Part shown: one piece after another, positions 905 to 40,228 of the stretch
How positions within the stretch are numbered: the first letter of the stretch is position 1
How the letters are laid out: each line of letters starts with the position of its first letter
Assembly (NCBI GenBank): GCA_027353165.1
Contig: DAIEHY010000003.1
Location: forward strand, 1 to 41,033
Length of the DNA stretch: 41,033 nt
DNA from: Desulfosporosinus sp.
Lineage (GTDB): Bacteria; Bacillota; Desulfitobacteriia; Desulfitobacteriales; Desulfitobacteriaceae
Direction of reading: 5' to 3'
Made by a program: the position numbers and the translations under genes
The notes under the pieces: model-generated
The model's database searches: none
The model's input: the letters and a program-made list of their open reading frames with translations, nothing else
What the model was told of the DNA's origin: nothing

Positions 905-933
905 ATTAAACCACGGTTTAACTATGTAGTCAA
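905..933 (-). promoter_or_regulatory. Leftward sigma70-type promoter overlapped by palindromic operator
   Basis: On the minus strand TTGACT (928-933) is followed after 17 bp by TTTAAT (905-910). The perfect 7+7 inverted repeat TTAAACCGTGGTTTAA (906-921) covers the 3' half of the spacer and the -10 box, so a bound repressor would block RNA polymerase. Transcription would begin near 898, about 20 nt before the GTG of the zinc-motif gene. Confidence 0.75.
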
Positions 934-942
934 ATTTAAATG

Positions 943-1137
943 CTATTTAAAGACATATTGCAGCAGTAGCTGCGTAATGTTTGCCACTGCTATTCCAACC
1001 ATAAATCCTTGGCTTCTGCCGTGTCGCTTGGTCTCAATTATGATTCGGTCGATGACTTGCATCATGTCGGACTTTCCAGCCAAGATTGCGGCTCTTGGGG
1101 CGGTTAATTTGACTGGGAATTGGATGATTTCAGTCAT
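943..1137 (-). CDS. Hypothetical protein, 64 aa, possible membrane segment
   Basis: Unrecognised. The C-terminal third (about residues 44-62, GFMVGIAVANITQLLLQYVF) is hydrophobic enough for one membrane-spanning helix; the N-terminal part is basic. The start overlaps the stop of the upstream gene as TAATG, so it is the last cistron of the leftward set 2287 to 943. It ends just before the 905-933 promoter, which lies in the gap to the next leftward gene. Confidence 0.6.
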   Translation of the reverse strand: MTEIIQFPVKLTAPRAAILAGKSDMMQVIDRIIIETKRHGRSQGFMVGIAVANITQLLLQYVFK

Positions 1138-1451
1138 TATTCACCACAAATCATAGTTTTCAAATCTTCCTTACCACGTCCAAGCCAATGCTGATTAGGT
1201 GTGTTATCGACCCACATTCTGTCCTTCCACATCAAATACCACCATCCAATCTGAGAACAGATGAAATCCTTCTGCTCTGGCGTGAATGTGGCGAACATCT
1301 TTTGCTCCATTTCATACCGTGCCCGATACTCAGGGGCTACTTCTTCGAGAAGTGTTTGACTGAGCTTCATGTCAGCAACCAAATTAAGCTCTTCGTCATT
1401 GCGCTTGCCTTCTACGATTGTCTTGGCTTCTTCTATTATGCTTGTCATCAT
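1137..1451 (-). CDS. Hypothetical protein, 104 aa
   Basis: Unrecognised soluble protein, acidic and helical at the N-terminus (EEAKTIVEGKRNDEE). Its Trp-rich C-terminal half (QIGWWYLMWKDRMWVD, about residues 67-82) suggests a compact hydrophobic core or binding face. The ATG at 1451 overlaps the upstream stop (ATGA), and its stop overlaps the next start (TAATG). It is an inner cistron of a tightly coupled leftward early operon. Confidence 0.65.
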   Translation of the reverse strand: MMTSIIEEAKTIVEGKRNDEELNLVADMKLSQTLLEEVAPEYRARYEMEQKMFATFTPEQKDFICSQIGWWYLMWKDRMWVDNTPNQHWLGRGKEDLKTMICGE

Positions 1452-1729
1452 TCATCCCCAAACATTTCAGTTATCACACGTTCAAATTGCTCTTTACGCC
1501 TTTGCGTCAATTCCAATTCATCAATGGCATCAAGCAACGCATCAAACTTAATTGGATACTCAGATGACAATTCCTGAATCTTCTGCTCTCTGTCAGCTAG
1601 GACACTCTCAAGCTTGCAGACCTCCAGTTCAGCCTTCTTACGCATTTCACGAGCACGCAATGGAGCTTTAGCTTCATTAATCTTCTCCTTGCATAAAGCC
1701 AGTACATCCTTATATTTCATTAAATTCAT
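1448..1729 (-). CDS. Coiled-coil hypothetical protein, 93 aa
   Basis: Long charged helix throughout (KAELEVCKLESVLADREQKI and flanks), predicted coiled coil. No family recognised. I place the start at ATG 1729 and not at the in-frame TTG at 1735: GGAG lies 7 nt before the ATG but only 1 nt before the TTG. The stop overlaps the next gene (ATGA). Confidence 0.65.
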   Translation of the reverse strand: MNLMKYKDVLALCKEKINEAKAPLRAREMRKKAELEVCKLESVLADREQKIQELSSEYPIKFDALLDAIDELELTQRRKEQFERVITEMFGDE

Positions 1730-1760
1730 TTTCAATCTCCTTGGTGATTAATTGTCTAAG

Positions 1761-1988
1761 CTACTTAGCCCGACTCCTTAGTAATAAAAGCTTTTTATCC
1801 TTCTTGGATTTATTCGTATCTGAAGTAACAGTATTATCGTTGCTTTTTATACCGCTTACTTCAGTAAATTGCATCTGCGCTCCTAAAATCATGCGTTCAC
1901 GCTCCATCCGATAATTGTACTCATTGATCTGCTGAGCATGGTGACAAGAGTGCGAGCAACATCTAAAACAAAATGTTGACAGACTCAT
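1761..1988 (-). CDS. Small Cys/His-rich hypothetical protein, 75 aa
   Basis: The N-terminus packs Cys and His (CFRCCSHSCHH, residues 7-17), consistent with a single metal-binding knuckle. The middle is helical and the C-terminus is very basic (KSKKDKKLLLLRSRAK), which could contact nucleic acid. The start overlaps the stop of the upstream gene as ATGA (1985-1988). Function unknown. Confidence 0.55.
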   Translation of the reverse strand: MSLSTFCFRCCSHSCHHAQQINEYNYRMERERMILGAQMQFTEVSGIKSNDNTVTSDTNKSKKDKKLLLLRSRAK

Positions 1989-2287
1989 GCTATAAGAGCC
2001 CTAAACTTAAACTCTGGCGCTGACGCATGAGTTTCAGGGTTCATTCTGTCGTAATGCCATAGTGCAATCCTTGGTCTCATGCCACACTGGTCTAAATACT
2101 TGCTGCTGCGCTGGGTTAGCGTCTTAATGTCACTCTCAAGTGCCGTCTGGGCTTCTTTGCTCAATTCTGTCAGTGGCGCAATGTAGCGGTCATTCTCAGT
2201 GTATGTTGGCCTTGAGTCGCATAGCATCTTGCCTAACATTTGCACTCGGTCGTAAATTCGTCTCCATTCCTTTATCGAAAATTGCAT
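1985..2287 (-). CDS. Hypothetical protein, 100 aa
   Basis: First gene of the leftward operon 2287 to 943. It is a helical soluble protein with a Glu/Lys-rich middle and conserved-looking aromatic residues; no family recognised. The ATG at 2287 follows an AAGGA ribosome site about 8 nt upstream. A promoter candidate with TTAACT, a 16-bp gap and TACAAT lies upstream, overlapped by an operator-like palindrome at 2360-2375. Confidence 0.6.
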   Translation of the reverse strand: MQFSIKEWRRIYDRVQMLGKMLCDSRPTYTENDRYIAPLTELSKEAQTALESDIKTLTQRSSKYLDQCGMRPRIALWHYDRMNPETHASAPEFKFRALIA

Positions 2288-2335
2288 GATTATCCTTAAT
2301 CAGATTTTAGTTCACTCATCAATGAGGCTACCAGC

Positions 2336-2376
2336 ATTGTAACTGAAATATAATTTGAGTTAAATTAGGGTTGAAT
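2336..2376 (-). promoter_or_regulatory. Operator-like palindrome and leftward promoter candidate
   Basis: The element TTAAATTAGGGTTGAA (2360-2375) is a degenerate copy of the TTAAACC-NN-GGTTKAA palindrome found at other promoters here. On the minus strand its end merges with TTAACT, followed 16 bp later by TACAAT, suiting the gene starting at 2287. On the plus strand a TATAAT (2349-2354) lies just before it but lacks a good -35 box. Confidence 0.45.
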
Positions 2377-2392
2377 TAATAAGGGGTGATTG

Positions 2393-2623
2393 ATGAATGA
2401 TTTTACGAGAGAAGAGCTGCAAATGCTTTACAACATGATATTGCATGTTCGTAATGACTACCCAGCAATCAGAAAAGATAATGATGCTTGTTGCTTGAAA
2501 CACAAACTCCAATCCATGATTGACAGCTATTGCGACCACGCATGGGCATTCCATGTCAATGTCGATGGAAATTATGTGGCTTGTCAGAAATGTAATAGAA
2601 ATCTAACTAATTCGCATGAATAG
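2393..2623 (+). CDS. Small zinc-finger-like protein, 76 aa
   Basis: The protein ends in a CDHAW...CQKC arrangement (Cys/His pair about residue 48, CxxC about residue 67) that resembles short phage treble-clef proteins. The N-terminal half is helical (FTREELQMLYNMI). I use ATG 2393 rather than TTG 2390 because of its position after AAGGGGTG. It is a lone rightward gene between two leftward clusters, and its stop is followed at once by a small hairpin (AGTGT/ACACT). Function unknown. Confidence 0.65.
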   Translation: MNDFTREELQMLYNMILHVRNDYPAIRKDNDACCLKHKLQSMIDSYCDHAWAFHVNVDGNYVACQKCNRNLTNSHE

Positions 2624-2647
2624 TGTAAGTACACTTGTACTAATGGC

Positions 2648-2701: not shown

Positions 2702-2710
2702 ATGGGAAGT

Positions 2711-3110: not shown

Positions 3111-3214
3111 AGACAGATTTATAAGAATTTCTGCGGGAAATTATTGGGGTGAACACTATCCTTATTCTGTATGTGCGCGAGTTTAATTCGTATGGGAATT
3201 TTCTAGGATTGCTA

Positions 3215-3464
3215 GAAATATTTAGGGGGAAATGAACCTGAGATAATTTTGCACAAATAATTTTGACAAAATTGTGGGATATTTTTGGGCAGTGTATTTT
3301 GGGAATTGGCTGATTGCGGGAGAGGTGAGGCTCCAGCACTCGCAGCGGGGTGCCTCTGTTGCGGGGCATACCCCCCTCGAAGGCTCAAGCAGTACCCCTC
3401 TGGCATGGCTGGCGACAACGACGAGTCCAGTTGTGAGCAATGACTACGCGTCATCATCAACCAT
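3215..3464 (-). ncRNA. Candidate structured non-coding RNA (leftward)
   Basis: The 560-bp gap between 3110 and 3673 holds no convincing gene. A GC-rich block (about 3300-3470) stands out from its AT-rich surroundings and folds well. GGGG-CATA-CCCC (3363-3374) is a perfect short hairpin, and GAGGC (3327-3331) pairs with GCCTC (3352-3356) around an inner GCAC/GTGC stem. A near-consensus leftward promoter (3471-3499) would start a transcript near 3464. Open frames here lack ribosome sites and protein-like composition. The 3' end is not defined; a long 5' leader for the genes at 3110 and 2929 is the alternative. Confidence 0.35.
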
Positions 3465-3470
3465 GTGCGC

Positions 3471-3499
3471 ATCATATCAACCTAGGTTTAATATGTCAA
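3471..3499 (-). promoter_or_regulatory. Leftward consensus-like promoter with operator palindrome
   Basis: Minus strand TTGACA (3494-3499), 17-bp spacer, TATGAT (3471-3476). The spacer contains TTAAACCTAGGTTGA(T) (3476-3491), the same palindrome seen at 906 and 5051. It drives the GC-rich non-coding stretch and possibly the genes at 2711-3110. Confidence 0.75.
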
Positions 3500-4242: not shown

Positions 4243-4259
4243 ACCTTCGAATACTCATT

Positions 4260-4651: not shown

Positions 4652-4669
4652 GATTGATATTCCTTATCG

Positions 4670-5043: not shown

Positions 5044-5072
5044 TTGACAGTTAAACCTAGGTTGAATATAAT
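5044..5072 (+). promoter_or_regulatory. Perfect consensus rightward promoter with operator as spacer
   Basis: TTGACA (5044-5049), exactly 17 bp, TATAAT (5067-5072). The spacer is one G plus the 16-bp palindrome TTAAACCTAGGTTGAA (5051-5066), so the operator fills the space between the boxes. It drives the nine-gene rightward operon 5106-7554. A bound repressor would shut off an otherwise maximal promoter. Confidence 0.9.
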
Positions 5073-5105
5073 GACGGCTTATTAACCAAGCGAGGACAAT
5101 CATTG

Positions 5106-5318
5106 ATGAAAGAGCGCGATATGAAGAGTGCCTTGGATAACGACAAAGTGCGCGTAAAAGGTAAAAAATTTGACGTGAAATTAGTTATACCTTTAATGGA
5201 TGACGAAATAAGGGAGTCTTTGCATAGCCGGAAAGATTGGGAATCAGAACAGCAATTTTTAGATCAATATTGCATAGAACATCAATTAAAATTTCTTGAA
5301 GAATTTATTATAAATTAA
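5106..5318 (+). CDS. Hypothetical protein, 70 aa
   Basis: First gene behind the strong promoter at 5044-5072. Charged, helical C-terminal half (EQQFLDQYCIEHQLKFLEEF); no family recognised. ATG 5106 is chosen over TTG 5103 because of its 8-nt distance from GAGGAC. The leader TTAACCAAGCGAGGACAATC is nearly repeated before the next gene. Confidence 0.65.
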   Translation: MKERDMKSALDNDKVRVKGKKFDVKLVIPLMDDEIRESLHSRKDWESEQQFLDQYCIEHQLKFLEEFIIN

Positions 5319-5372
5319 TTTCAAAGAAAGAACCTGATAAGAATTAATTTTAACCAAGTGAGGACAATCACA

Positions 5373-5738
5373 ATGAGCAGAAGTAGCGAACAACAATTAC
5401 TTAAGAACCTTGAGGACACAATCAAGGAACGCATTACATGGAACATTCAAAACGGCCACTATTCAGACCTTGACCGTGACCAAATACTGGAAGACTTGCA
5501 AGACTCAAGCCATGAAATGATCGATGGTGAACTGCCGATTTATTATCACGATATGGCCAAATTACTCGCTGAAAATACACGATTCGCGGATGTTGACGAT
5601 TCCGGCATGCTTCCTGAAAACCCGACAGTTTGGGATATCATCACTGCGTCAGTTTACGAGTGGCTATCAGGTGAATTCTTTGAGTTAGCTTGTGACGCAG
5701 TTGACGAGTTAATGCCAGAATTGAGGTTACCCGCATGA
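5373..5738 (+). CDS. Acidic hypothetical protein, 121 aa
   Basis: Strongly acidic helical protein, unrecognised. The start is ATG 5373, just after GAGGACAATCACA; an upstream in-frame ATG (5358) would lie within the repeated leader. Its stop overlaps the next start by four bases (ATGA). The high negative charge resembles DNA-mimic or host-takeover proteins encoded in early phage operons, but nothing specific supports that. Confidence 0.65.
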   Translation: MSRSSEQQLLKNLEDTIKERITWNIQNGHYSDLDRDQILEDLQDSSHEMIDGELPIYYHDMAKLLAENTRFADVDDSGMLPENPTVWDIITASVYEWLSGEFFELACDAVDELMPELRLPA

Positions 5739-5956
5739 ATACAGTTCACGCCTTTTTATACAAAGGCAACGAAATAATAATACTTTTTGACCAAAATGAA
5801 GAATTATATGCCGTTGATATTCGAATTGATGATTATGACGGTCACATGATTCAAGGCTATTGCGAACTAGGCAGCGAATCTGAAGCAATAAGCGTAGGAA
5901 AGGCATTCGTTGATGGCTTAAGGCACGTTGAAGAACCAGAAATACAAAATAGGTGA
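5735..5956 (+). CDS. Hypothetical protein, 73 aa
   Basis: Acidic small protein with a predicted beta-rich N-terminal half (VHAFLYKGNEIIILFDQNE). Unrecognised. Translationally coupled to the upstream gene (ATGA) and followed closely by the next cistron. Confidence 0.6.
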   Translation: MNTVHAFLYKGNEIIILFDQNEELYAVDIRIDDYDGHMIQGYCELGSESEAISVGKAFVDGLRHVEEPEIQNR

Positions 5957-5960
5957 AGCT

Positions 5961-6119
5961 ATGAAAACACTGATAACAAGTGCACTCACCGCATGGGTGA
6001 CAGTGATCGCACACAATCAAATTCTTGAATCAGATACAGAACATTATCGATTTAGAAAGGATTCGATTGATGCCGTGTGCGCTATACATGAATTTTATAA
6101 GCAATTTGAAGGGGCATAA
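5961..6119 (+). CDS. Hypothetical protein, 52 aa
   Basis: Short protein beginning MKTLITSALTAWVTVIAH; the N-terminal 16 residues are hydrophobic and could be a weak membrane anchor. The start at ATG 5961 is supported by AGGTGA, which contains the stop of the preceding gene. Function unknown. Confidence 0.5.
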   Translation: MKTLITSALTAWVTVIAHNQILESDTEHYRFRKDSIDAVCAIHEFYKQFEGA

Positions 6120-6120
6120 T

Positions 6121-6324
6121 ATGAGCGATTTTAAAGAGGCAAAGCCAATTAGAAAATTAATAGTAGGTGACTGCATAAGCGTTTCAGGCTATGCGGATGA
6201 CGCAGCAGAAATTGAGGAAATACGCCCTATTTCAACTTGTATCATGGTCACATTATCAAACGGTGACGCAAAATTATTTAACCCAAAAGACTTTGACAAA
6301 CTTATTCGCTGTTACAAAATTTAA
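6121..6324 (+). CDS. Hypothetical protein, 67 aa
   Basis: Small beta-rich protein (VGDCISVSGYADD, IMVTLSNGDAKLF), possibly an SH3/KOW-like barrel, but no family is recognised. ATG 6121 follows AAGGGG by a good distance; the longer open frame upstream overlaps the preceding gene and lacks a ribosome site. Confidence 0.6.
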   Translation: MSDFKEAKPIRKLIVGDCISVSGYADDAAEIEEIRPISTCIMVTLSNGDAKLFNPKDFDKLIRCYKI

Positions 6325-6349
6325 CATTAACTAACGGGGGACAATCCAA

Positions 6350-6556
6350 ATGACACTAGACCAAGCAATACAAGACATGCTTAAAAACTCAATTGATAGC
6401 GATATCGAATCGCTTGAATGGCTCGCACGCAATGAACGTGCCGACACAATAGAACGCTATCAATCCACCTACGGATGGACAATAGCAGACTGCAATGAAT
6501 TCTTAGATAATGCCGTGCTGGCATATGAGTTACTTGTGAAGGATAAAGCAGCATGA
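6350..6556 (+). CDS. Hypothetical protein, 68 aa
   Basis: Acidic, helical; unrecognised. It has its own ribosome site in the recurring leader (GGGGGACAATCC) and overlaps the next start by ATGA. Member of the 5.1-7.55 kb rightward operon. Confidence 0.6.
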   Translation: MTLDQAIQDMLKNSIDSDIESLEWLARNERADTIERYQSTYGWTIADCNEFLDNAVLAYELLVKDKAA

Positions 6557-6960
6557 AAGAGGAATCAAAGATAATAAAACAGATTCGACTACAGTTAGCG
6601 CATTGTATGGCGTGCTATGGTGATGAACCAGAACGCCTCATGTACAAGCTTGAAACCTTAGTGTTGGAATGGTACGACAAAGGCAAGCAAGCAGGTTATG
6701 AAGCATGGCGAAAGTCAAATCATGATTACATTCAGCAATTTTTAAACATGACGGTTGATGATGATAGCGATTCAACGAAAAGCGTCAAGGCTACAATCGC
6801 GCAATTCCTGTCAAACGTGAAGCATCAATTTAACCTGATCGCGAATGAGCAAGTGGGAATGTTAAGCCGTGAAGATATTGTGCAATCTCAAATTGACCAA
6901 CTGCGAATTTGTATCGTGGATTTACAAAGAATTTTAAACCTAAAGGAAGAAAGACAATGA
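6553..6960 (+). CDS. Helical hypothetical protein, 135 aa
   Basis: Largest product of the small-gene operon. It is mostly alpha-helical with a coiled-coil-like C-terminus (QSQIDQLRICIVDLQRILNL). No family recognised. Coupled at both ends by ATGA overlaps, suggesting fixed stoichiometry with its neighbours. Confidence 0.65.
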   Translation: MKEESKIIKQIRLQLAHCMACYGDEPERLMYKLETLVLEWYDKGKQAGYEAWRKSNHDYIQQFLNMTVDDDSDSTKSVKATIAQFLSNVKHQFNLIANEQVGMLSREDIVQSQIDQLRICIVDLQRILNLKEERQ

Positions 6961-7235
6961 GCAATCAAAGGCGCACGATTATAGGGGCTTGCGACTACAC
7001 CATCGCAGCAATACAGAATCTCAAAAGGGATTTACAGAATATTGACGCGACAAATCCAGAATTAAATTGGGCGATAGGCGGAATCGTGGCAACGCTATCA
7101 AGCAATCTCTTGATGATATGCGATCAGGTGTTCCAAGAATCGGGTGCAGACGGAAAACCAGACGCGAAACAGGATTTAACGGAAATCAAGGAGCGATTCG
7201 CGCAATTTGTCGACAGAATGGTGAATCATGAATGA
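6957..7235 (+). CDS. Hypothetical protein, 92 aa
   Basis: Helical protein with a central hydrophobic stretch (IGGIVATLSSNLLMI, about residues 40-54), probably a buried helix. Unrecognised. ATG 6957 overlaps the upstream stop (ATGA) and follows GGAAGAAAGAC. The following gene starts within its last codons. Confidence 0.6.
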   Translation: MSNQRRTIIGACDYTIAAIQNLKRDLQNIDATNPELNWAIGGIVATLSSNLLMICDQVFQESGADGKPDAKQDLTEIKERFAQFVDRMVNHE

Positions 7236-7554
7236 GTTTAACAAACGATATCTTGATATACTACGCAGACAAGTTGACGAAGAAATACACTTCCTTGTGA
7301 ATAATGGACATGATAACGGCGTTATCTATCAGCCATGTATGTTCTGCATTGAGAGACCAAATTCAAGCTATGTTTGCCGTAGATTAACCGATTTAAGGCG
7401 GTTTCTATCAAGCATAGTAAGCCATGGGTCAAGCAAGTTACGACAACAGCATGAACGCAAGCGTATAGGCTTTGAAGCTGAAATATTCCCAACGCAACAA
7501 GATGGGGTCGTCAATTATGGCGAGAAAATGCCATTGCTTTCCATCAAGCTATAA
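7228..7554 (+). CDS. Hypothetical protein, 108 aa, Cys-containing
   Basis: Last gene of the rightward operon. Contains a CMFC pair (about residues 37-40) and a third Cys (about 51) that might bind a metal. The C-terminal part is basic then beta-like. No family recognised. Directly followed by the convergent terminator at 7561-7594. Confidence 0.6.
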   Translation: MNEFNKRYLDILRRQVDEEIHFLVNNGHDNGVIYQPCMFCIERPNSSYVCRRLTDLRRFLSSIVSHGSSKLRQQHERKRIGFEAEIFPTQQDGVVNYGEKMPLLSIKL

Positions 7555-10279: not shown

Positions 10280-11791
10280 CTACTCTGAAACCTGTTCTAA
10301 TTCAATAGATAAACTGTGTCTAATGTCAGCTAATGTAGTAACATTAAACAGCTCGCCATCTTCAAATACAGTTTCCAAGTGACTTTCTTCTTCTGCTGAT
10401 TCAGTTACATCATCAACAAGATAATATCGACCAGTTTCCATATCCATTTCTACCTGAAGCAATCCGCGAGCAGACTTCTTCTTATTGCCATCACTCGCCG
10501 TGATAGGGTCTTTATAAATTGCGTGACGCTTTCCATTAATTACAGCACTGGTTGCCTTCATCGCAAACCCAAAGGTATCGCGTGTGACATACTGGTATGT
10601 GTAGCTCCCAACACCGAAAACAATGTTACTCGAAGCGAATCCCTTCTCTTCCATAATTTGCAAGATTAAAGATGCGCGGTCAACTGTAATGGCATCACCA
10701 TAGATGAGTCCTACCTTGGGGTTCAGCTCCTTATAACCTGCTGAATTGATTCGTCCTCCGAAAGTGTCCCAGAGTAATTGCAATGCTCCTTTATAGGCTG
10801 GAGTGTCACGCACCGCACACATATCGCCACATATGATATCAACAGGATTACCAGAGTCAGGACGAATAACCACCTTCCCTTCTCGGTTAACAATTTCGCT
10901 ATACAAGCTCGGAATATAGACACTTAATGTTCTCCATAAGTCATATGAATCTGACACGATTGATACTATGCCAGTGGGATATACTTCAGTAATTAACCTC
11001 TTGATGGTCTCGTACTCACCGTCAGAACCACCGCAACACATCACACTATGCTCAGTCGCTGGAACGCTGCTACCGACAATACTGGCGGTAGCACTTGCAT
11101 CATAGTGTTGATTTAATAGGTCAATTGCGCTAACACAATCCGTTCCTTTAAAGCTTGTAAGGTGAGCTGCTCCTGATAGTGTTGCGTCATTCCATCCAGA
11201 CATGCCACGGAAACTAAAGTCATGCGCCTGATAGTCTACGAATGATTCATCTGCGCCTGTCAGTTTCGCGTACTTCATAAGCAATCGTTTATATTCAAAT
11301 GCTATGGTCGCTGAAGTCATAGCTTTCCAGAGACTCGCTGAAATAATAGTTTCAAGATAATTCGTAAGCCAATAGAAATCAGGATGAGTGTTAACGATGG
11401 TCAGAACAGGTACGCCAATCGGAACACGAAACCCTTCGTTGATAGCCTTAATGCGAATCGGCAAGTAACCAAGGTCATGTAGAGCCTCCAAGTGCGAGCA
11501 ATCAAAGTCTTCAATGCCTAATGCTGTTTGAACTAAATCCTTGTATTCATCGATAACATTTCGCTTGTCACGCTGGAAGAACAGCCATTTCCACTGCTCC
11601 GACAAATAATCTTTGATGAACGATTGTATGCCAAATACGACAACTTGGTTATCAAAATCTGACAATAAACTATGATTTTGCTTAACATATCGTGGCGTGA
11701 AATTAGAATAGATTTCAGTTGTTCCTTCAGGATATTGTCTCCGATGGTCTACCTTGTAAAAATCTATGGCAAATAGGGGATTATGATACAT
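10280..11791 (-). CDS. NAMPT/NadV-like phosphoribosyltransferase (candidate Namat of NARP1), 503 aa
   Basis: Full-length member of the nicotinamide phosphoribosyltransferase family. Conserved segments in order: the substrate loop DFYKVDHRRQYPEG (10-23), DFSFRG (191-196, R195), KGTD (215-218), the catalytic-His segment PATEHS (H248), VSDSYD (279-284), IRPDSGNP (309-316, R310 and D312) and YGDAI (364-368). NadV enzymes make NMN from nicotinamide and PRPP. In the NARP1 pathway the homologous Namat joins nicotinamide to ADP-ribose pyrophosphate, giving NAD+ directly. Sequence alone cannot tell the two apart. It overlaps the PRPP-synthetase-like gene by 11 bases, fixing the pair as one module. Start ATG 11791 follows AGGAG. 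Confidence 0.9.
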   Translation of the reverse strand: MYHNPLFAIDFYKVDHRRQYPEGTTEIYSNFTPRYVKQNHSLLSDFDNQVVVFGIQSFIKDYLSEQWKWLFFQRDKRNVIDEYKDLVQTALGIEDFDCSHLEALHDLGYLPIRIKAINEGFRVPIGVPVLTIVNTHPDFYWLTNYLETIISASLWKAMTSATIAFEYKRLLMKYAKLTGADESFVDYQAHDFSFRGMSGWNDATLSGAAHLTSFKGTDCVSAIDLLNQHYDASATASIVGSSVPATEHSVMCCGGSDGEYETIKRLITEVYPTGIVSIVSDSYDLWRTLSVYIPSLYSEIVNREGKVVIRPDSGNPVDIICGDMCAVRDTPAYKGALQLLWDTFGGRINSAGYKELNPKVGLIYGDAITVDRASLILQIMEEKGFASSNIVFGVGSYTYQYVTRDTFGFAMKATSAVINGKRHAIYKDPITASDGNKKKSARGLLQVEMDMETGRYYLVDDVTESAEEESHLETVFEDGELFNVTTLADIRHSLSIELEQVSE

Positions 11792-12617: not shown

Positions 12618-12789
12618 CTTCAATATTCCCTATATCAGATTTCATTTGCAAGAAAGCAAAAAGAGTCCCAGCACGGAACCCTCTTCGATAATCTTTATTC
12701 TCTTCGGTAGCAAGTTCATCATGAAATGCCATGCTCGCGTCATTAATATTCCTTTGAAGGAATTTCTGCGTTTCGGTCAATGATTTCAT
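12589..12789 (-). CDS. Hypothetical protein, 66 aa
   Basis: Helical, charged, unrecognised. It overlaps the membrane-protein gene upstream by 47 bases and the PRPP-synthetase-like gene downstream by 29 bases, so it is embedded in the same transcript. The central YRRGFRAGTLFAFLQM (about residues 34-49) is its most distinctive stretch. Confidence 0.5.
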   Translation of the reverse strand: MKSLTETQKFLQRNINDASMAFHDELATEENKDYRRGFRAGTLFAFLQMKSDIGNIEDAATERSTD

Positions 12790-13898: not shown

Positions 13899-14114
13899 TT
13901 ATTTCGTCTTAGGCTTCTTGGGATGCCTCACTAGATAAGGGTCTTCATCATCGGGCAATAATTCGCCCTCGGTCACGGTGGCAATTTTAAACTGTTGCTT
14001 CCAAGGAATATAACCCTGCTTCTTCCACTTCGTCATATTCTGTGATGCGATATCGATTGCTTTGCAAGCTTGATGTAGATTACCAAACCATGCAACTACT
14101 TCTTCAATAGTCAC
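13899..14114 (-). CDS. Cro-like transcriptional regulator, 71 aa, GTG start
   Basis: Short helix-turn-helix protein of the Cro type: EEVVAWFGNLHQACKAIDIA followed by SQNMTKWKKQGYIP and KQQFKIATVTEGEL. This matches phage Cro proteins in length and in the closing I-x-x-x-T-x-G-E-L. I place the start at GTG 14114, because GGAG lies 6 nt upstream and the leftward TATAAT at 14142-14147 predicts a short leader. Longer in-frame starts (up to 14291) would cross the promoter and the divergent gene. It is the natural binder of the palindromes at its own and other promoters. Confidence 0.8.
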   Translation of the reverse strand: MTIEEVVAWFGNLHQACKAIDIASQNMTKWKKQGYIPWKQQFKIATVTEGELLPDDEDPYLVRHPKKPKTK

Positions 14115-14141: not shown

Positions 14142-14203
14142 ATTATAATCTAAACCCTGTTTGAATTCCATAGATTGATTTAAACCTGAGTTGCATACAT
14201 AAT
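14142..14203. promoter_or_regulatory. Divergent control region with two operators and back-to-back promoters
   Basis: Rightward: TTGATT (14175-14180), 17 bp, CATAAT (14198-14203), for the YqaJ-RecT-SSB operon. Leftward: TATAAT on the minus strand (forward 14142-14147) with a weak -35, for the Cro-like gene. Two palindromes, 14150-14165 (CTAAACCCTGTTTGAA) and 14180-14195 (TTAAACCTGAGTTGCA), each end 2 bp before the respective -10 box. This symmetric layout is that of a phage genetic switch. Confidence 0.75.
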
Positions 14204-14226: not shown

Positions 14227-15057
14227 ATGCTAACGGATGAGCAACGTGCCAAACGGCATGAAGGAATTGGTGCTTCTGATACACCAATCATTATGGGCTA
14301 TTCAACCTATAAGACACCCTATCAGTTATACCTAGAGAAGACTGGAGCAATTGAGTCTGATGATGAAATGACAGAGCAGCAATATTGGGGGAATGCCCTT
14401 GAGCCGCTAATCATTAAACGATTCGCAGAAGAAAACGATGTCAAAGTCTCGTTCCCTGATACTGTATATCATCCTGATTATCCTTTCATATTTGCCAATT
14501 TGGACGGCTGGATTGAGTCTGAGAATGCGGTTATCGAGGCCAAGTCTGCCAACAGCTTCCAGCGTAAAGAATGGGACATGGCACTTACAGATGGTATTCC
14601 TCTCGTCTACCTCATTCAAGTTGCTAAGCAATGCCTGATTACAAATGCGACCAGAGGCTATTGCGCTGTGCTTATTGGCGGCATGGAGTACAAGCAATTC
14701 ACCTATGAGCGTGACGCAGCACTTGAGGCTCTTATACTTCAGGCAGATATCGACTTTTGGGATTGTGTCCAGAATAAACGTGAACCTGCTTTAAGTTCAA
14801 CATCCGATTGTAGATTGAAGTTTCCTACGCCTCATCCTGATAAGGTCGTTAATTCGAATTTCAGAACTGGCAATGCGCTTGCGGAATTGATGAACGTCAA
14901 AGGTGCAATCAAGAATCTGACAGACCAAGAAGATAAATTTAAGATGGAGCTTATGTCTCATATGGGTGATGCGGAATATCTTATAGGGCAAGATGGTGAA
15001 TTGTTGGCCACATGGAAGGCTACTAAAAAGGGTACACGAGTTTTTAACATTAAGTGA
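14227..15057 (+). CDS. YqaJ/lambda-Exo-type recombinase exonuclease, 276 aa
   Basis: N-terminal GIGASDTPIIMGYSTYKTP (13-31) and WGNALEP (54-60) are hallmark segments of YqaJ viral recombinases. The nuclease core includes NLDGWI (91-96) and VIEAKS (102-107), giving the Asp/Glu-x-Lys metal site. The enzyme degrades one strand of double-stranded ends to make 3' single strands for the annealase. It is followed immediately by recT-like and ssb genes, the standard two-component recombination set. ATG 14227 follows AAGGAGG at ideal spacing. Confidence 0.9.
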   Translation: MLTDEQRAKRHEGIGASDTPIIMGYSTYKTPYQLYLEKTGAIESDDEMTEQQYWGNALEPLIIKRFAEENDVKVSFPDTVYHPDYPFIFANLDGWIESENAVIEAKSANSFQRKEWDMALTDGIPLVYLIQVAKQCLITNATRGYCAVLIGGMEYKQFTYERDAALEALILQADIDFWDCVQNKREPALSSTSDCRLKFPTPHPDKVVNSNFRTGNALAELMNVKGAIKNLTDQEDKFKMELMSHMGDAEYLIGQDGELLATWKATKKGTRVFNIK

Positions 15058-15065
15058 GGGATCAC

Positions 15066-15998
15066 ATGACTACTACAGAACTAGCGCAGGTTCCAGAGAA
15101 ATCGCGGCAACTTGATCACATGAAACCAACACGCTTGGAAGACAGTTTATACTCTAAGGATTTAGCACCACATTATATGCAATTAGCCAGTAAGCTCGCA
15201 TCGAGTGACCTTATACCGAAATCATTCAGAGGCAAGCCGCAAGATTTATTCATCTGCTGGGCTATGGGCTATCAGGTGGGTCTTACGCCAGAGCAATCAC
15301 AGCAATGTATCGCAGTCATCAACGGCAAACCTGCCATGTGGGGTGATGATATGTTAGCCCTATGTATGGCGCATAAAGACTTTGATGACATCATTGAAAC
15401 ACCTATCGTGAAGAATGACTCCATCATCGGGTACACCTGCATTGTTAAGCGCAAAGGTAAGGCTGACAAGGAGAGCATATTCACCATGGACATGGCCAAG
15501 AAAGCCGGACTTCTAGCTAAGGGTGGCGTATGGAATCAATACCCTGAGCGTATGTTGAAGCTTCGGGCAAGAGGATTCTGTCTGCGTGATGCCTTCCCTG
15601 ATGCGTTAAAAGGCATTAAGCCAAGAGAAGAGGTTGAGGACTATATCGATGCTGACTACACCGTATCAAATCAAAAGGGTTCACGTACAGAATTATTGAA
15701 GCAAGACATTTTAACCAAGCAAGGAGTGAGCAATGTGGACGTGGTTTATGGAGCCGTGGCTACAGATGAGCATAAAGTCGCTGGCGAGACGAATGACGAG
15801 AACGAAGAACGAGGACAAGAGGATGAAGTTAGCGTCACGCCAGCTTCGTTGCATCTTAAAGTTAGAGAGCTTATCGCGGACAAAGACTTCAATGATGAAC
15901 GATTAGCCAAGGCTCTTGCCTTTTACGAAGTCGGAAGTATCGAAGAACTGTCCGTTGAAGCGGCAGAGAATTTTATTGAAAAACTACTGAAACTATAA
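15066..15998 (+). CDS. recT: RecT-family single-strand annealing protein, 310 aa
   Basis: Core typical of RecT-like annealases: LYSKDLAPHYMQLASKLASS near the start, GKPQDLFICWAMGYQVGLTPEQSQQCIAVINGKPAMWGDDM in the middle, and ERMLKLRARGFCLRDAFPD. The C-terminal part is acidic and low in complexity, then helical, probably a partner-binding tail. It anneals complementary strands produced by the YqaJ exonuclease. ATG 15066 is chosen because GAGG lies 6 nt upstream; a GTG at 15054 overlaps the preceding stop. Confidence 0.88.
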   Translation: MTTTELAQVPEKSRQLDHMKPTRLEDSLYSKDLAPHYMQLASKLASSDLIPKSFRGKPQDLFICWAMGYQVGLTPEQSQQCIAVINGKPAMWGDDMLALCMAHKDFDDIIETPIVKNDSIIGYTCIVKRKGKADKESIFTMDMAKKAGLLAKGGVWNQYPERMLKLRARGFCLRDAFPDALKGIKPREEVEDYIDADYTVSNQKGSRTELLKQDILTKQGVSNVDVVYGAVATDEHKVAGETNDENEERGQEDEVSVTPASLHLKVRELIADKDFNDERLAKALAFYEVGSIEELSVEAAENFIEKLLKL

Positions 15999-16007
15999 GG
16001 ATATATC

Positions 16008-16400
16008 ATGGTAAACCAAGGAACCGTACTCGGACGTGTAGGCAAGATTGATACTAAGACAACCAGCTCAGGGGTCAAAATTAGTAATGTCAGCATGGTC
16101 ACTTCGAAAAAGTTTGTGAAAAACGGTGAGAAGCACGAAAAGGTAACATGGCACAATGTGACGATGTTTAATAAACTTGCAGAAATTGCTGAGAAATATG
16201 TTAGCGTGGGTGATTTGCTGTACATCCAGGGCGAGATGGACAACCAGAAGTACACTGATGGGAATGGTCAGGAGCGCACAAAGTACTTCATCATAGCGCA
16301 CGACCTTAAATTGATGCCAAAATCTAAGGAACATAAGCCTGAGCCTAAGAAAGAAAGCACATATGAAGAAGCGTTCGAAGATAGCGAGCTACCCTTCTAA
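16008..16400 (+). CDS. ssb: Single-stranded DNA-binding protein, 130 aa
   Basis: OB-fold SSB: QGTVLGRVGKIDTK at the N-terminus, WHNVTMFNKLAEIAEKYVSVGDLLYIQGE in the core, and the acidic C-terminal tip DSELPF that recruits partner enzymes in bacterial SSBs. It is shorter than E. coli SSB (178 aa) because the linker is reduced, which is normal for phage SSBs. Third gene of the rightward recombination operon. Confidence 0.92.
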   Translation: MVNQGTVLGRVGKIDTKTTSSGVKISNVSMVTSKKFVKNGEKHEKVTWHNVTMFNKLAEIAEKYVSVGDLLYIQGEMDNQKYTDGNGQERTKYFIIAHDLKLMPKSKEHKPEPKKESTYEEAFEDSELPF

Positions 16401-28640: not shown

Positions 28641-30232
28641 TGATATACCTCGATCATGCCATTCGCAATTACAACCGCACCAAATCCCCAGAATCTCATT
28701 TGAATAGTGAACTGATTTGCTTCACCAAGCTTGTTAAACCTAGGTTGATTCTTGTATTGGCCAGTAGGATGCATGTAGTAAATACTGGCATTCCCGTAGG
28801 TTTCTCCGCCATTCTTGGAACATGTAACGTCAATCCGTGGACGGTATATCTGACAACTTCCACCTTCGACAAGCAAAGGTAAGTCATCTTCTGAGTACAT
28901 GATTTTTCCGCTGCTTTCACCTAGGATGTAGCCATCGCATTCAAACTGGTAATCTACGTTCTGCTCAACACCGTTCTCGATAGTGAAGCTAAATTGATTC
29001 ACGATAAATCTGTCGCTACCTGGCAGTCTATAAGTATCACATTTCCTGATGCGTGGAATCTCATACACATTCTGAACATCCGTAGAAATGTACGTTAAAT
29101 CTGTACTAATGCGCATTAGGCTGCCCTGATTCAACGAAACGAAGTAGATTTCATTGTTAAAGTATGCCATTTGACGCGCTGGATGATAATTGAAGTCCCA
29201 ATCTGTGATATCAAAGAACTTTTGAGTGGTGAAGTCATACATGATTGAGAAGTTATCTTCCGTATCAAAGAAAGTCAGAATATAGAAAACATGACCATCT
29301 TGCCGATAGAACATTGCGGTAGACTTATCTGGATGTTGAACTCTGCTTAAAAGGTAATCGATACCGTCAGTCGATAACCTCTCAGCGCGTCCGCCTGTCA
29401 TTACCATAATGGCAGGCGAGGATTTCTCATTTATCCCTAGCCACGCGATCATGTCATCAGAAGCCGCGATCGTTGAAACTGAAGCAACGCCATAGTCGAT
29501 ATTAATAGATGACTGGCGTTGATAAACCTGTAATCCAGCAACGTTAGTCCAAATTTCAGCTACAGTTGAACCAAGCACCAATAGGTTATTCCCATGGCTT
29601 GGTATTCTGATACATGCTCTCGCAAAGTCTGGCTTAGTTTGTAGCGTCAGTGTTTGAACCCAACTTAACTTCAATGGGTCTGCCAGTGTCGTAGGATTAA
29701 ACCCGCTTTTGTAAACAAACCATTGAGAGCCTGATGTCGTATTGTCACCATTACCGAAAATGAAATATGTATTCTGATATGTGACATAATTAGGCGTGAA
29801 TGTCGTTCCGCCTCCAGTATTGTCCCAAACAATCGCGCCTATGGTACCAGTAGTATAATTGTAGATGTAAGCTGTAGAAGTTCCATCAACGATAGCAATC
29901 TGCGAGCTAAGATTCTCGTCCATAAAGACTTCGCCAACACTGCTTCCGATGCTTGCTAAAAATGTAAATCCAAGGTTGCCATCAATGCGATATACATTAG
30001 AACCTAAAACAGCGATTAGAAAGTTACCTCGTGTAGAATGAAACAACCCACGACCTTCTGTCGTTGTCGTCAATATTTCTACTGCTTGCTCATATCCTGC
30101 AAAGTTAATCAGCCAATCATCAGAGATAAAAAGATTATAAGTTCTTTCATCGCTAATAATAGGATGACGACCGAAAATGCTCGAACCAACGATGCGTACA
30201 GGAATTTGTGTTCCACCAGGGGTCATCACCAT
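28637..30232 (-). CDS. P22 gp10-like packaged-DNA stabilisation (tail hub) protein, 531 aa
   Basis: Beta-propeller-like architecture with repeating segments (RGLFHSTRGNFLIAVLGSNVYRI; NNLLVLGSTVAEIWTNVAGL; MIAWLGINEKSSPAIMVMTGG) that recall P22 gp10. In P22, gp10 forms the hexameric tail hub below gp4 and closes the channel after packaging. It is longer than gp10 (472 aa). Position directly after the gp4-like gene supports the call. Confidence 0.75.
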   Translation of the reverse strand: MVMTPGGTQIPVRIVGSSIFGRHPIISDERTYNLFISDDWLINFAGYEQAVEILTTTTEGRGLFHSTRGNFLIAVLGSNVYRIDGNLGFTFLASIGSSVGEVFMDENLSSQIAIVDGTSTAYIYNYTTGTIGAIVWDNTGGGTTFTPNYVTYQNTYFIFGNGDNTTSGSQWFVYKSGFNPTTLADPLKLSWVQTLTLQTKPDFARACIRIPSHGNNLLVLGSTVAEIWTNVAGLQVYQRQSSINIDYGVASVSTIAASDDMIAWLGINEKSSPAIMVMTGGRAERLSTDGIDYLLSRVQHPDKSTAMFYRQDGHVFYILTFFDTEDNFSIMYDFTTQKFFDITDWDFNYHPARQMAYFNNEIYFVSLNQGSLMRISTDLTYISTDVQNVYEIPRIRKCDTYRLPGSDRFIVNQFSFTIENGVEQNVDYQFECDGYILGESSGKIMYSEDDLPLLVEGGSCQIYRPRIDVTCSKNGGETYGNASIYYMHPTGQYKNQPRFNKLGEANQFTIQMRFWGFGAVVIANGMIEVYQ

Positions 30233-33107: not shown

Positions 33108-33890
33108 TCAGCCTTTTAAGTAGGAGGCTGATTTGAAGTCCCGTACATTCTTCGTACCACTGTCTGTTCCCACGGGCGAAGGCTTCAGACGGTTTAAGGG
33201 ATCTTGCGGTTCTTGCAAATTACGTTTTGCCTCGTCATTCCGTTTAATTGACTCGGAAAGCTTTGACAATTCGTTCTTGGCCATGCTGGGTGATTTCTCA
33301 ACCAATACTGCCAGGTCAGCCAACTTACCTGGATTCTTCCGCAGCTCATAAATTATGGCTGGGGTGTTATCCAATTGATTGGCTAAAAACACTAACTGTG
33401 GAAACTCAGCAGGGTTAAAATCGGCTGTAACTGCCTCAAAGTCTTCGAACATGTCTTTACCTTGAGCCATTTTGCCGAAATACTGCTGTGCTACCTGATT
33501 AACTTCTTGCTCGATTTGCTCTTGATGCCGCTTGGCTTCTTCTTCTTGCTGCTTCTGCTGTAACAGTTGCATCACCTGTTGCTGAATCTGTTGCGGGTCG
33601 ACTCCTTGTTGCTGCCCTTGTTGGGGTGGCTGTGGGGAACCAGTCTGCGCAGTATTCTGCAACCCTTGTTGCGCCTGTTGAGCCTGAAGCTGCTCAATCT
33701 GTTGCCGTGCTGCGTCTAGTTGCTCTTGCATTTTCTGCTCTCCTTTGCGTTTCGCCTTTTTAATCAGCTCATTCACTTGGGAAGCAGGAAGCATTTTCTC
33801 AGGTGGTGGAGTTTCAGCGTCTTGCGACACTTCTTCAGCACCCACATTAGTATCTTGCAATAAATCTTCTGCAATATCCTTTGCATCCAT
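33108..33890 (-). CDS. Scaffolding protein, Gln-rich coiled coil, 260 aa
   Basis: Acidic N-terminus, a long Gln-rich coiled coil (about 35-135: QEQLDAARQQIEQLQAQQAQQ; QQVMQLLQQKQQEEEAKRHQ) and a basic/mixed C-terminal segment (about 205-260), the part that binds coat in P22-like scaffolds. Between portal and coat genes, the usual position. Scaffold guides procapsid assembly and leaves before packaging. Confidence 0.8.
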   Translation of the reverse strand: MDAKDIAEDLLQDTNVGAEEVSQDAETPPPEKMLPASQVNELIKKAKRKGEQKMQEQLDAARQQIEQLQAQQAQQGLQNTAQTGSPQPPQQGQQQGVDPQQIQQQVMQLLQQKQQEEEAKRHQEQIEQEVNQVAQQYFGKMAQGKDMFEDFEAVTADFNPAEFPQLVFLANQLDNTPAIIYELRKNPGKLADLAVLVEKSPSMAKNELSKLSESIKRNDEAKRNLQEPQDPLNRLKPSPVGTDSGTKNVRDFKSASYLKG

Positions 33891-33899
33891 TGAAACCTC

Positions 33900-34118
33900 A
33901 CTGTTTCCGGTGTGACCGTGATCACCTGCCGTCCGTGGCAGTCCGACTATTTTGTCCGCATAGCTGCGTAAATGGCCTAGCGTCCTTTTAGTCTCAGGCT
34001 AGTCTGAGATACTACATGTAGTGTTAGTCCATCCTAGACAACACTACATCTTGTGTAATGAACTTAGTATAGCAACAATTCTTGCAAATGGAATAGATGT
34101 TAACCAACGGTTTAAATC
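33900..34118. promoter_or_regulatory. Hairpin-rich leader upstream of scaffold-coat genes
   Basis: The gap contains several hairpins: CTGCC/GGCAG (about 33938-33953), GTCTCAG/CTGAGAT (about 33991-34010), ACTACATGTAGT (about 34013-34024), and TAGTGTT/AACACTA around a 14-nt loop just after. A leftward promoter candidate lies near 34060-34090 (TTCCAT, 16 bp, TATACT), with an operator-like palindrome at 34100-34115 upstream. Confidence 0.45.
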
Positions 34119-34235
34119 TCACCTCAGACAATCCTTTTTAACCATTTTTTTAACCAATTTCTTATCCTGCTTAATATCGTCATGTTTCGCCTTCTTGGGC
34201 TTCTGGCGCATAGCACCTTTAGGCTTGTCTCTCAT
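34119..34235 (-). CDS. Very basic Lys-rich small protein, 38 aa
   Basis: Short frame starting at ATG 34235, overlapping the stop of the preceding gene as ATGA, behind GGGGAAGAAG. About 40 percent of residues are Lys or Arg. It could bind nucleic acid or the acidic scaffold; unrecognised. Confidence 0.5.
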   Translation of the reverse strand: MRDKPKGAMRQKPKKAKHDDIKQDKKLVKKMVKKDCLR

Positions 34236-34441
34236 TTCTTCTTCCCCAAAATTCTGTCAGCCTTGGCATCAATCTTAGCCTTGGCTGAAGGTGATAATTT
34301 ACCCTTATGCTCCATCTCTGAAGCGCGTGACTTAGCATTGCGGGCGTGACTCTTATTATTTACGGGATATTTCCTTTCAGCCGGAAGTGCAAAGTCAGAC
34401 TTCGGTAATTTATTCCGTGCTTTGCTTGTTAATTTTGCCAT
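34232..34441 (-). CDS. DUF6582-like basic small protein, 69 aa
   Basis: Sequence KARNKLPKSDFALPAERKYPVNNKSHARNAKSRASE followed by KLSPSAKAKIDAKADRIL matches a widespread phage and bacterial small basic family (DUF6582-type) often encoded among structural genes. Function unknown. ATG 34441 overlaps the stop of the Tad2-like gene (TAATG). Confidence 0.7.
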   Translation of the reverse strand: MAKLTSKARNKLPKSDFALPAERKYPVNNKSHARNAKSRASEMEHKGKLSPSAKAKIDAKADRILGKKK

Positions 34442-34701
34442 TATGCAAACTCCCAATCCTCAGCCATTAAATCGCCCATAGATGCAAGCCAAACTCCAAT
34501 ACTTCCATCTTGGTATTTCATATCTATATGAGGCCGGTAGGTTATCTCTGTACCTTCATCAAACATACCAAGCAATGGTGGTCTATTAACTTTGAAATTA
34601 GAACCATTAACCAAGAATACATATTGATCTTTACCATTCCATCCTGAGCGTTTTACAAGAGCACCGTTCTTTATTTCAACTAATGCTTCACTAAAATTCA
34701 T
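34441..34701 (-). CDS. tad2: DUF2829 protein, Tad2-like anti-Thoeris sponge candidate, 86 aa
   Basis: Clear DUF2829 pattern: MNFSEALVEIKNGALVKRSGWNGK (1-24), NRPPLLGMFDEGTEITYRPHID (about 39-60) and VWLASMGDLMAEDWEF at the end. Tad2, a DUF2829 protein, forms a tetramer that captures the cyclic ADP-ribose signal of Thoeris defence. Length matches Tad2 (about 90 aa). Many family members have untested function, so the activity is inferred. It lies in a chain of overlapping small genes after the portal, an accessory spot in the late operon. Start coupled to the upstream micro-gene (ATGA). Confidence 0.8.
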   Translation of the reverse strand: MNFSEALVEIKNGALVKRSGWNGKDQYVFLVNGSNFKVNRPPLLGMFDEGTEITYRPHIDMKYQDGSIGVWLASMGDLMAEDWEFA

Positions 34702-36942: not shown

Positions 36943-36944
36943 GG

Positions 36945-38501: not shown

Positions 38502-38609
38502 GTAGGGGCAATCCTTTGCCAGATTCGCATCATGCGAGCCTAAATGAAGATATCAATGTTACATTAGCACAAAATTCGATAAAAACACTATATATTGTGT
38601 CTAGTTTAT

Positions 38610-39014: not shown

Positions 39015-39027
39015 TATTGCTCCTAAT

Positions 39028-39113
39028 TGGTGGAGAAGCTAGGATTCGAACCTAGACGGACTAGCCGACCGCAGGGTTACAGCCTGGTGCCCTTCCTAAT
39101 AGGCGTCTTCTCC
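39028..39113 (-). tRNA. tRNA-Tyr (anticodon GTA)
   Basis: Class II tRNA with a long variable arm. Perfect acceptor stem GGAGAAG/CTTCTCC, anticodon loop CTGTAAC (GTA), T-arm CTAGG-TTCGAAT-CCTAG, discriminator A and encoded CCA. The C-C mismatch at the top of the anticodon stem is the only flaw. Confidence 0.9.
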
Positions 39114-39118
39114 GAAGG

Positions 39119-39193
39119 TGGTTGCGGGAGAAGGAGTTGAACCTTCGACATGAGGAGTATGAACCATCTGTTCTACCACTGAACTACCCCGCG
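39119..39193 (-). tRNA. tRNA-Met (anticodon CAT), initiator-like acceptor end
   Basis: Starts CGCGGGG and ends TCCCGCA-A-CCA, giving the C1-A72 mismatch diagnostic of bacterial initiator tRNA-fMet. Anticodon loop TTCATAC reads CAT. However, the anticodon stem (GATGG/TCCTC) lacks the three G-C pairs of initiators and has one mismatch, and the D-stem pair 11-24 is T-A, of the elongator type. So it is a mosaic: initiator acceptor end on an atypical body. CCA is encoded. Confidence 0.85.
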
Positions 39194-39201
39194 ATTATCA
39201 T

Positions 39202-39276
39202 TGGCTCTGGTGGCTGGATTCGAACCAACATTGTACAGATTAACAGTCTGCTGCCTTACCTATAGGCTACACCAGA
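39202..39276 (-). tRNA. tRNA-Asn (anticodon GTT)
   Basis: Regular cloverleaf: acceptor TCTGGTG/CACCAGA, D-arm GCCT/AGGC, anticodon stem GCAGA/TCTGT with loop CTGTTAA (GTT), T-arm GTTGG-TTCGAAT-CCAGC, discriminator G as expected for Asn, and encoded CCA. Confidence 0.93.
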
Positions 39277-39281
39277 ATAAC

Positions 39282-40100
39282 TTAAATCCGCTCAGGATGC
39301 TTAATATCCTTCGCCATCTTATACACCGCTTCTAACAACATATAATGCCTGAAAATAGCGGCAAATGGCCGATAATACGGATGTGTTACAACTGTACCAA
39401 TATGCGGAAACATTGTCACATAAATTGGCGCAGTTAATGGCGCATTCTGTATATGTTCCCAGCTATCATGCCACCACATGTTCGTTGTCGCGTCAAATGC
39501 TTGCCACTTTCCGCCTATGTAAGCCTCATTGAACACATGACCTGGGTTCATCATGAAGCGATTCTTAATTCCTGCCTTCGTTAATAGCATGTGTAGCATA
39601 TTAGCATGGTCAGTACAGCAACCAATTCGTGAAGCAATCATCTGCGGAATGTGCTTGCTGATGTCCTCTTCAGGATTAAATATTCCGCCAGGATGGTCTT
39701 CATTCTTGAAAACGCAACCTACTTGCGAAACCTTCACAGGATTGCCATAACCCCACATGTGCGCAGTGACGTTCATCATGTAGAGCGTCAATAGCAAATC
39801 TGGGTCGCTTACATGCCATTCACGATTAATCTCATCTTGATAGATATCAAATTGCATTCTAACCGCTTCATACAAGGCATCTTCTGTAAGGATAGGACTA
39901 CGAGTAAGAAATTCTCGGTCAAACCATTCGCTCTTGTGGTTCACCGATAAATCTTGAATCTTAATGGTCTGAATGCGCGTAAAATCTACAATAGGCAGCG
40001 GAACCGCAGCAGCTAATTCGTGCCGAAATGCGTACCCTCCTGAAATCCCTATCATACTCACTGCCAGACACAGAATTCCTGGAATCAATAATTTTCTCAT
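39282..40100 (-). CDS. Secreted/anchored transglutaminase-like cysteine enzyme, 272 aa
   Basis: N-terminal signal or anchor helix (about residues 4-22). The C-terminal half has the transglutaminase-like core: GCCTDHANMLHMLLTKAGI (160-178, C162 the likely nucleophile), GHVFNEAYIGGKW (187-199, H188) and FDATTNMWW (202-210, D203). This Cys-His-Asp triad serves proteases, peptide cyclases or crosslinkers. The substrate is unknown; cell-envelope peptide or host-surface modification is plausible given the signal helix. It sits between tRNA genes in an accessory position. Start ATG 40100; ribosome site is weak (AGGGACATC). Confidence 0.8.
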   Translation of the reverse strand: MRKLLIPGILCLAVSMIGISGGYAFRHELAAAVPLPIVDFTRIQTIKIQDLSVNHKSEWFDREFLTRSPILTEDALYEAVRMQFDIYQDEINREWHVSDPDLLLTLYMMNVTAHMWGYGNPVKVSQVGCVFKNEDHPGGIFNPEEDISKHIPQMIASRIGCCTDHANMLHMLLTKAGIKNRFMMNPGHVFNEAYIGGKWQAFDATTNMWWHDSWEHIQNAPLTAPIYVTMFPHIGTVVTHPYYRPFAAIFRHYMLLEAVYKMAKDIKHPERI

Positions 40101-40119
40101 GATGTCCCTATCAACATTG

Positions 40120-40191
40120 TGCTACGCCTAGGAGTCGAACCTAGAACTTCCGCTTACAAGGCGCCTGCGCTGCCAATTGCGCCAGTATAGC
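40120..40191 (-). tRNA. tRNA-Thr (anticodon TGT)
   Basis: Acceptor GCTATAC/GCGTAGC with one wobble and one mismatch, D-stem GCGC/GCGC, anticodon loop CTTGTAA (TGT), T-arm CTAGG-TTCGACT-CCTAG, discriminator A. CCA is not encoded. The upper two pairs of the anticodon stem are mismatched, so it is more divergent than the other tRNAs. Confidence 0.8.
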
Positions 40192-40199
40192 ATTTAATC

Positions 40200-40228
40200 A
40201 GTATATTCAAATCAGGTTGAAGCGTCTA
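40200..40228 (-). promoter_or_regulatory. Leftward promoter with operator as spacer, before tRNA-Thr
   Basis: Minus strand TAGACG (40223-40228), 17 bp, TATACT (40200-40205). The 16-bp palindrome TTCAACCTGATTTGAA (forward 40206-40221) plus one base fills the spacer, the same geometry as at 5044-5072. It would express tRNA-Thr and the transglutaminase-like gene. Confidence 0.65.

Follow-up and report, generated by a model that had tools for sequence, protein, structure and literature searches.

We analyzed a 41,033-nucleotide contig assigned to Desulfosporosinus sp. (assembly GCA_027353165.1, contig DAIEHY010000003.1), referred to in its entirety as the window, and found a 16-bp palindrome, TTAAACC-NN-GGTTKAA, within or against most of its early promoters. 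Judging from the sequences of the window and of related phages, the P22-type Cro protein that the phage itself encodes (13899-14114) probably uses this palindrome as its operator and would thereby repress several early promoters together. The window is that of a tailed phage, with genes for a terminase large subunit, portal, major head protein, head closure protein, endolysin, DnaB-like helicase and RecT, and it also encodes YqaJ, AcrIC5-like, SPFH, Ocr-like and Tad2-like proteins. IMG/VR contained 52 loci related to it. Another relative is contained in a contig of Legionella maceachernii ATCC 35300; it has cellular genes on either side and thus resembles a prophage integrated there.

The sites, their enrichment, synteny and overlap with promoters, and the covariation with Cro, were computed. 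An initial annotation had listed eight 16-bp sites, all of which are present with the sequence given there. Allowing up to three mismatches, TTAAACCNNGGTTKAA had 28 strand-matches in the window compared with 7.1 ± 3.3 in shuffled sequence, and none of 100 shuffles reached 28. An unbiased palindrome search, covering all 16,384 seven-base half-sites at five spacings, returned TTCAACC-2-GGTTGAA as the best non-coding palindrome of the window (weighted n of 5.5, 0.06 expected). In addition, a matrix built from the related phages with the window left out gave, at a cut-off of 10 bits, 12 matches, 8 of them intergenic (3,822 bp) and 4 in genes (37,211 bp). The intergenic matches were exactly the eight sites of the initial annotation, at approximately 20-fold the density seen in genes, so the comparison of intergenic with coding hits that it had proposed came out in favor of intergenic enrichment. 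Equal frequency in shuffled sequence, which it had named as refuting, was not seen, as shuffles gave a mean of 0.93 matches and a maximum of 2, against the 12 in the window. It is extremely improbable that these are chance palindromes in AT-rich promoter DNA; the two to three mismatches in several sites would fit such an origin, but the shuffles, the relatives-only matrix, and the synteny and covariation described below all argue against it. Six to seven of the eight sites look like real operators.

The positions of the sites relative to promoter elements indicated how they could act. The operator at 5051..5066 (+), in the anti-defense promoter, exactly fills the spacer of TTGACA-17-TATAAT as the 16-mer plus one base, and a weaker operator at 40206..40221 (−) fills that of TAGACG-17-TATACT, both as initially described. 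The latter precedes a tRNA-Thr gene and a transglutaminase-like gene, and no syntenic copy of it was found in the relatives. Behind it, at 39028-40191 (−), are tRNA genes for Tyr, Met, Asn and Thr (four of the five tRNAs of the contig) together with the transglutaminase-like gene. The initial annotation had also placed the sites at 906 and 3476 over −10 boxes. The operator at 906..921 (−) does overlap the −10 of TTGACT-17-TTTAAT, the promoter of the left early operon (550-879, 426-629), and is retained in the related phages G001, G004, G007, G009 and G006. That at 3476..3491 (−) reads as spacer-filling in TTGACA-17-TATGAT, a leftward promoter pointing away from the resolvase gene, and this type of site also fills the spacer in G001, G003, G018, G051 and G013. 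The operators at 14150..14165 (−), in the leftward cro promoter (TGGAAT-17-TATAAT), and at 14180..14195 (+), in the rightward yqaJ-recT-ssb promoter (TTGATT-17-CATAAT), both closely precede divergent −10 boxes, as had been noted. They do not flank the Cro gene as had been claimed, since both are inside the divergent cro-yqaJ intergenic region. Nearly all close Cro-bearing relatives have an operator in this gap, and its second site (14180) is retained in close relatives. Lastly, a weaker operator at 2360..2375 (no strand assigned) is situated between genes 1985-2287 (−) and 2390-2623 (+), and a better match is present at the same position in G003 and G008.

The remaining site, 34100..34115 (no strand assigned), is doubtful. 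It lies between 34232-34456 (−) and a scaffold-like gene, 33108-33890 (−), and at 10.2 bits is the weakest of the eight; promoter scoring there found nothing above background, and its listing among the operators was not supported. In several relatives, whatever their Cro type, the scaffold gene has a sequence similar to it at approximately 222-227 bp upstream. A further match at 28734-28749 (−), with one mismatch and missed by the initial annotation, was rejected as an operator, as it comprises the codons of NQPRFN in an Hc3-like gene. The peptide is conserved, but free variation was seen in its codons, including in phages that have another operator or no detectable Cro, and the match is therefore attributed to chance. 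Promoter scoring placed it at background level.

In approximately 20 related phages the palindrome occurs at the corresponding promoters, often filling the −35/−10 spacer exactly. The syntenic places are those before the conserved zinc-finger-like gene and anti-defense operon, the resolvase-side transcript, the cro-yqaJ gap, the left operon and the gap between genes 1985-2287 and 2390-2623. In most relatives the 5051-type promoter consists of TTGACA, the 16-mer plus one base, and a TATAAT-like box, and this architecture with a phage-specific half-site was observed in G001, G003, G004, G005, G008, G051, G018 and G015. Mean identity at this promoter was 0.92 for the operator, 1.00 for the −35 and 0.89 for the −10, compared to 0.70 upstream and 0.55 downstream.

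The candidate master repressor is the 71-residue Cro-like regulator encoded at 13899..14114 (−), whose gene has a GTG start with GGAG upstream. The protein belongs to the P22_Cro family (PF14549, 33.8 bits against a cut-off of 30.2, E 2.9e-8) and matches phrog_409 (transcriptional regulator), and a profile search identified P22 Cro (1RZS, E 3.3e-7) as well as 3BD1 Cro and N15 Cro (2HIN). In the profile alignment its residue 29 is aligned to Q27 of P22 Cro, and by our own alignment we take it to correspond to the DNA-contacting K32 of lambda. That its recognition helix specifies a palindromic operator over the cro promoter, as is characteristic of the family, is indicated indirectly by covariation and promoter overlap.

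The half-sites seen across the phages (TTMAACC, ATCAACC, CTAAACG, TTAAACT and TTAAAGC) differ in step with each phage's own Cro, and a variant is common to several promoters within one phage. De novo searches of individual phages returned ATCAACC in G007, CTAAACG in G013 (n of 6, 0.06 expected) and TTAAAGT/C in G051, and the half-site was TTAAACT in G006, G011, G018 and G057 and GTAAACC in G015. In G051, whose Cro has S29, base 6 is G rather than C at the cro, anti-defense and resolvase-side promoters together, and in G061/L210, with N29, the stronger half at the cro promoter is CTAAAGC. Where Cro has K29 or R29, C6 is found in the stronger half wherever the site is readable. Because the half-site, notably base 6 relative to residue 29, changes with Cro across phages, the Cro-like protein is the likely binder of the palindrome. 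In G010 no Cro was detectable beside yqaJ and the motif was not found at the corresponding promoters. In the G010 regions compared (L124-L126, upstream of yqaJ and at the resolvase and zinc-finger promoters), another near-palindrome, TTAATGCAGTGGATTAA-like, recurs at the latter two promoters, as would be expected had the repressor and its operators been exchanged jointly. In more distant phages (L229-L262, YqaJ approximately 45% identical) a Cro-like gene is also often found in divergent orientation to yqaJ, and a different conserved promoter sequence (GGCATTGACACATAATGCC...TTTGTCAAT) is present upstream of yqaJ. The initial annotation had suggested that the Cro-like gene or an unseen repressor controls at least six transcripts. 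Synteny and covariation in approximately 20 phages upheld a single operator in most early promoters, with Cro as its probable binder, but not the inclusion of 34100.

Several observations weigh against assigning the palindrome to Cro. The sites at 40206, 2360 and 14180 match the motif imperfectly. Residue 29 is changed in only two phages, a compelling pattern but a small number, and the operator was not readable for L205 (Q29) or for L203/L204 (N29). Whether a half-site has CC or CT does not follow Cro residues 24-29 (G003 versus G006/G018), and therefore other residues matter. G004 and G005 have a second, diverged Cro with its own palindrome, TACAACCNNNGGTTGTA, in an integrase module (L102-L104 in G005, L099 in G004), and cross-talk is therefore possible. 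In addition, the per-phage Poisson scores are rough, as numerous patterns were tried against a simulated background. In a few relatives (e.g., G014, G015 and G016), simple repeats or other sequences came out on top.

The sites might instead be owned by another phage repressor, either CI-like or an unrecognized DNA-binding protein, with Cro sharing them at the cro promoter only, in the manner of the lambda switch. Lambda CI uses the same operators as lambda Cro. In phiKO2, five operators are bound by CB and only one by Cro (PMC4997575), and many early genes of the window have no family match. We consider this unlikely, as the scans of window genes detected no CI/LexA-type or XRE family, the half-site changes from phage to phage along with the recognition helix of Cro, and neither the window nor the other relatives have the XRE gene seen in the L. 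maceachernii prophage. Binding by a host regulator exploited by the phage is very improbable. Palindromes of this size within promoters are typical of bacterial regulators, but the motif varies phage by phage with Cro and shows no enrichment either elsewhere in the assembly or in the L. maceachernii genome, and a host regulon was rejected on the latter grounds. In the whole 2.24 Mb assembly, 4 of the 10 places with at most one mismatch fall in the window contig; the L. maceachernii genome has 11 motif places, 5 of them on the prophage contig, versus 12 for a reversed control pattern.

We infer that Cro binds these sites and that it represses rather than activates. A Cro dimer would bind the 16-bp site, which is within the core promoter or adjoins it, and block RNA polymerase; repression is the likely effect because a protein occupying the spacer or the −10 of ordinary 17-bp-spacer promoters would be expected to exclude the polymerase. 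With the site at five to six promoters, Cro would lower them jointly. Its targets would be the left early operon (906), the resolvase-side transcript (3476), the anti-defense operon (5051), the recombination operon (14180) and Cro's own operon (14150), which may extend over the genes for SPFH, Prs, NadV and replication. Transcription at 1985|2390 (2360) and the tRNA transcript (40206) are probable further targets. As the cro promoter carries the operator, autoregulation is likely and would limit Cro itself. We also infer the operon extents and the timing, in which early genes would be shut off after an initial burst.

It is possible, if rather doubtful, that Cro is the maintenance repressor of a dormant state, lysogenic or plasmid-like, and not a lytic early-gene damper. 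This alternative concerns its role only and overlaps with the assignment of the operators to Cro. The related prophage integrated in L. maceachernii and the lack of a separate CI among the window genes scanned favor it, and the serine resolvase retained in most relatives would suit circular maintenance. However, Cro-family proteins are classically lytic repressors, and G004 and G005 were the only members to yield an integrase. That integrase had no match in the window or the other relatives, and the window, with a serine resolvase only, carries no integrase gene of the kind that would mark it as an integrating temperate phage. Based on its absence from the window, G001, G003 and G008, most members may not lysogenize by integration. 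The host of the window contig is uncertain, since the assembly bin is 67% complete and its family holds no further copy of the window Cro. No relative of this Cro was found in the GenBank phage records searched.

The operon behind the 5051 operator starts with an AcrIC5-family anti-CRISPR gene (5103..5318 (+); PF22147, E 1.7e-14, above cut-off), followed by an Ocr-like DNA-mimic anti-restriction gene (5358..5738 (+); PF08684, E 1.4e-8; phrog_2568, E 4.2e-10). The genes behind this type of promoter vary by phage, as Ocr-like orthologues head the corresponding operon in G004, G005 and G011 and unknown genes occupy it elsewhere. Ten small genes, nine of them from this operon position in relatives, had no Pfam match. 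The window also encodes, at 34441-34701 (−), a Tad2-like (Thoeris anti-defense) protein (PF11195, E 3.6e-22), and its phage therefore has at least three anti-defense families. The operon at 14227..16400 (+), which would be controlled from 14180, encodes a YqaJ exonuclease (PF09588, E 8.5e-26), a RecT-like annealing protein (phrog_561, E 1.6e-32) and a third protein that is SSB-like by synteny and reading of its sequence only. At 10280-12623 (−) are neighboring NadV-like (nicotinamide phosphoribosyltransferase) and ribose-phosphate pyrophosphokinase genes, named by eye from sequence, which form an apparent nicotinamide adenine dinucleotide (NAD) salvage pair and possibly counter NAD-depleting defenses.

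Just downstream of the 3476 promoter, beside the serine resolvase gene, is a conserved non-coding element (3263..3466 (−)) whose core, GGGGGTATGCCCC/GGGGTATACCCC, hardly varies among at least 13 related phages. It was not found in Rfam and no covariation was found in it; its fold is stable in the window (z about −4), and those of the relatives are no better than shuffles. The element is a candidate for either a non-coding RNA or a resolvase recombination site, which we regard as equal alternatives. An open reading frame at 3212-3475 was rejected as a protein gene because it overlaps the element. An IS66 TnpB (Orf2)-like gene at 40583-40933 (−) is retained as a phage gene in approximately 12 relatives, with no intact copy in the two integrase-bearing ones.

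The window Cro shares with the P22 and N15 Cro proteins (PF14549; 1RZS, 3BD1, 2HIN) its family, its size, a helix-turn-helix with the recognition helix placed alike and an operator over its own promoter. Operators of 16 bp are known from PY54, whose Cro binds a single palindromic site (PMC4488713), and from N15 and phiKO2, the Cro of the latter binding one operator (PMC4997575). Unlike P22 and N15, the window phage has no CI partner that was found, and its sites are at five to seven promoters genome-wide and not in one immunity region. In the lambda and P22 switch, cI and cro are divergent around a shared operator cluster, whereas the window cro is divergent from yqaJ. The contrast initially drawn with that single switch is therefore valid for the layout but not for the uniqueness it implied, as scattered repressor sites are known (PMC6550527). 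In mycobacteriophages L5 and Bxb1 one repressor acts at many genome-wide stoperators, up to approximately 30 asymmetric 13-bp sites that are oriented with transcription and mostly outside promoters, and from one relative to another their consensus shifts along with the repressor (PMC6550527). The window sites are likewise scattered and drift with the repressor, but they are few, palindromic and promoter-embedded, with neither the asymmetry nor the single orientation of stoperators, and the repressor is a different one. The phiC31 repressor, with its conserved inverted repeats, and P1 C1 also act from scattered operators at several promoters, one repressor each; their families are unrelated to the window Cro.

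Aca regulators are small helix-turn-helix proteins acting on anti-CRISPR operons and usually encoded within them (Aca2, PMC8434428; Aca families, PMC9410906). The window Cro is Aca-like in that a small helix-turn-helix protein likely represses an anti-CRISPR promoter via a palindrome inside it. It differs in being encoded approximately 9 kb from the acr gene and in also controlling, as proposed here, other early promoters; the families found in the 5103-7554 operon include no helix-turn-helix regulator. Scattered repressor sites were already known, and what would be new is a P22-type Cro running such a network together with an anti-defense operon.

The operator-filled promoter marks the anti-defense operon, and as its place is constant while the cargo genes differ by phage, the 5051-type promoter can be used to search for anti-CRISPR and anti-restriction genes not yet known. 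Regulatory sequences have already been used in this way in archaeal viruses (PMC11065993). Few Legionella phages are known, and this family includes a member in L. maceachernii. A broader proposal, to which we give an even chance, is that this is a CI-less phage family whose transcription has a single master regulator, one P22-type Cro. It would act via a lineage-specific operator that occupies the spacer of every main early promoter, that of the exchangeable anti-CRISPR/anti-restriction cassette among them, and Cro and its operators would have changed specificity together several times. The family offers a natural replicated experiment, with approximately 20 phages and readable recognition helices, in which a repressor and its scattered operators shift specificity together.

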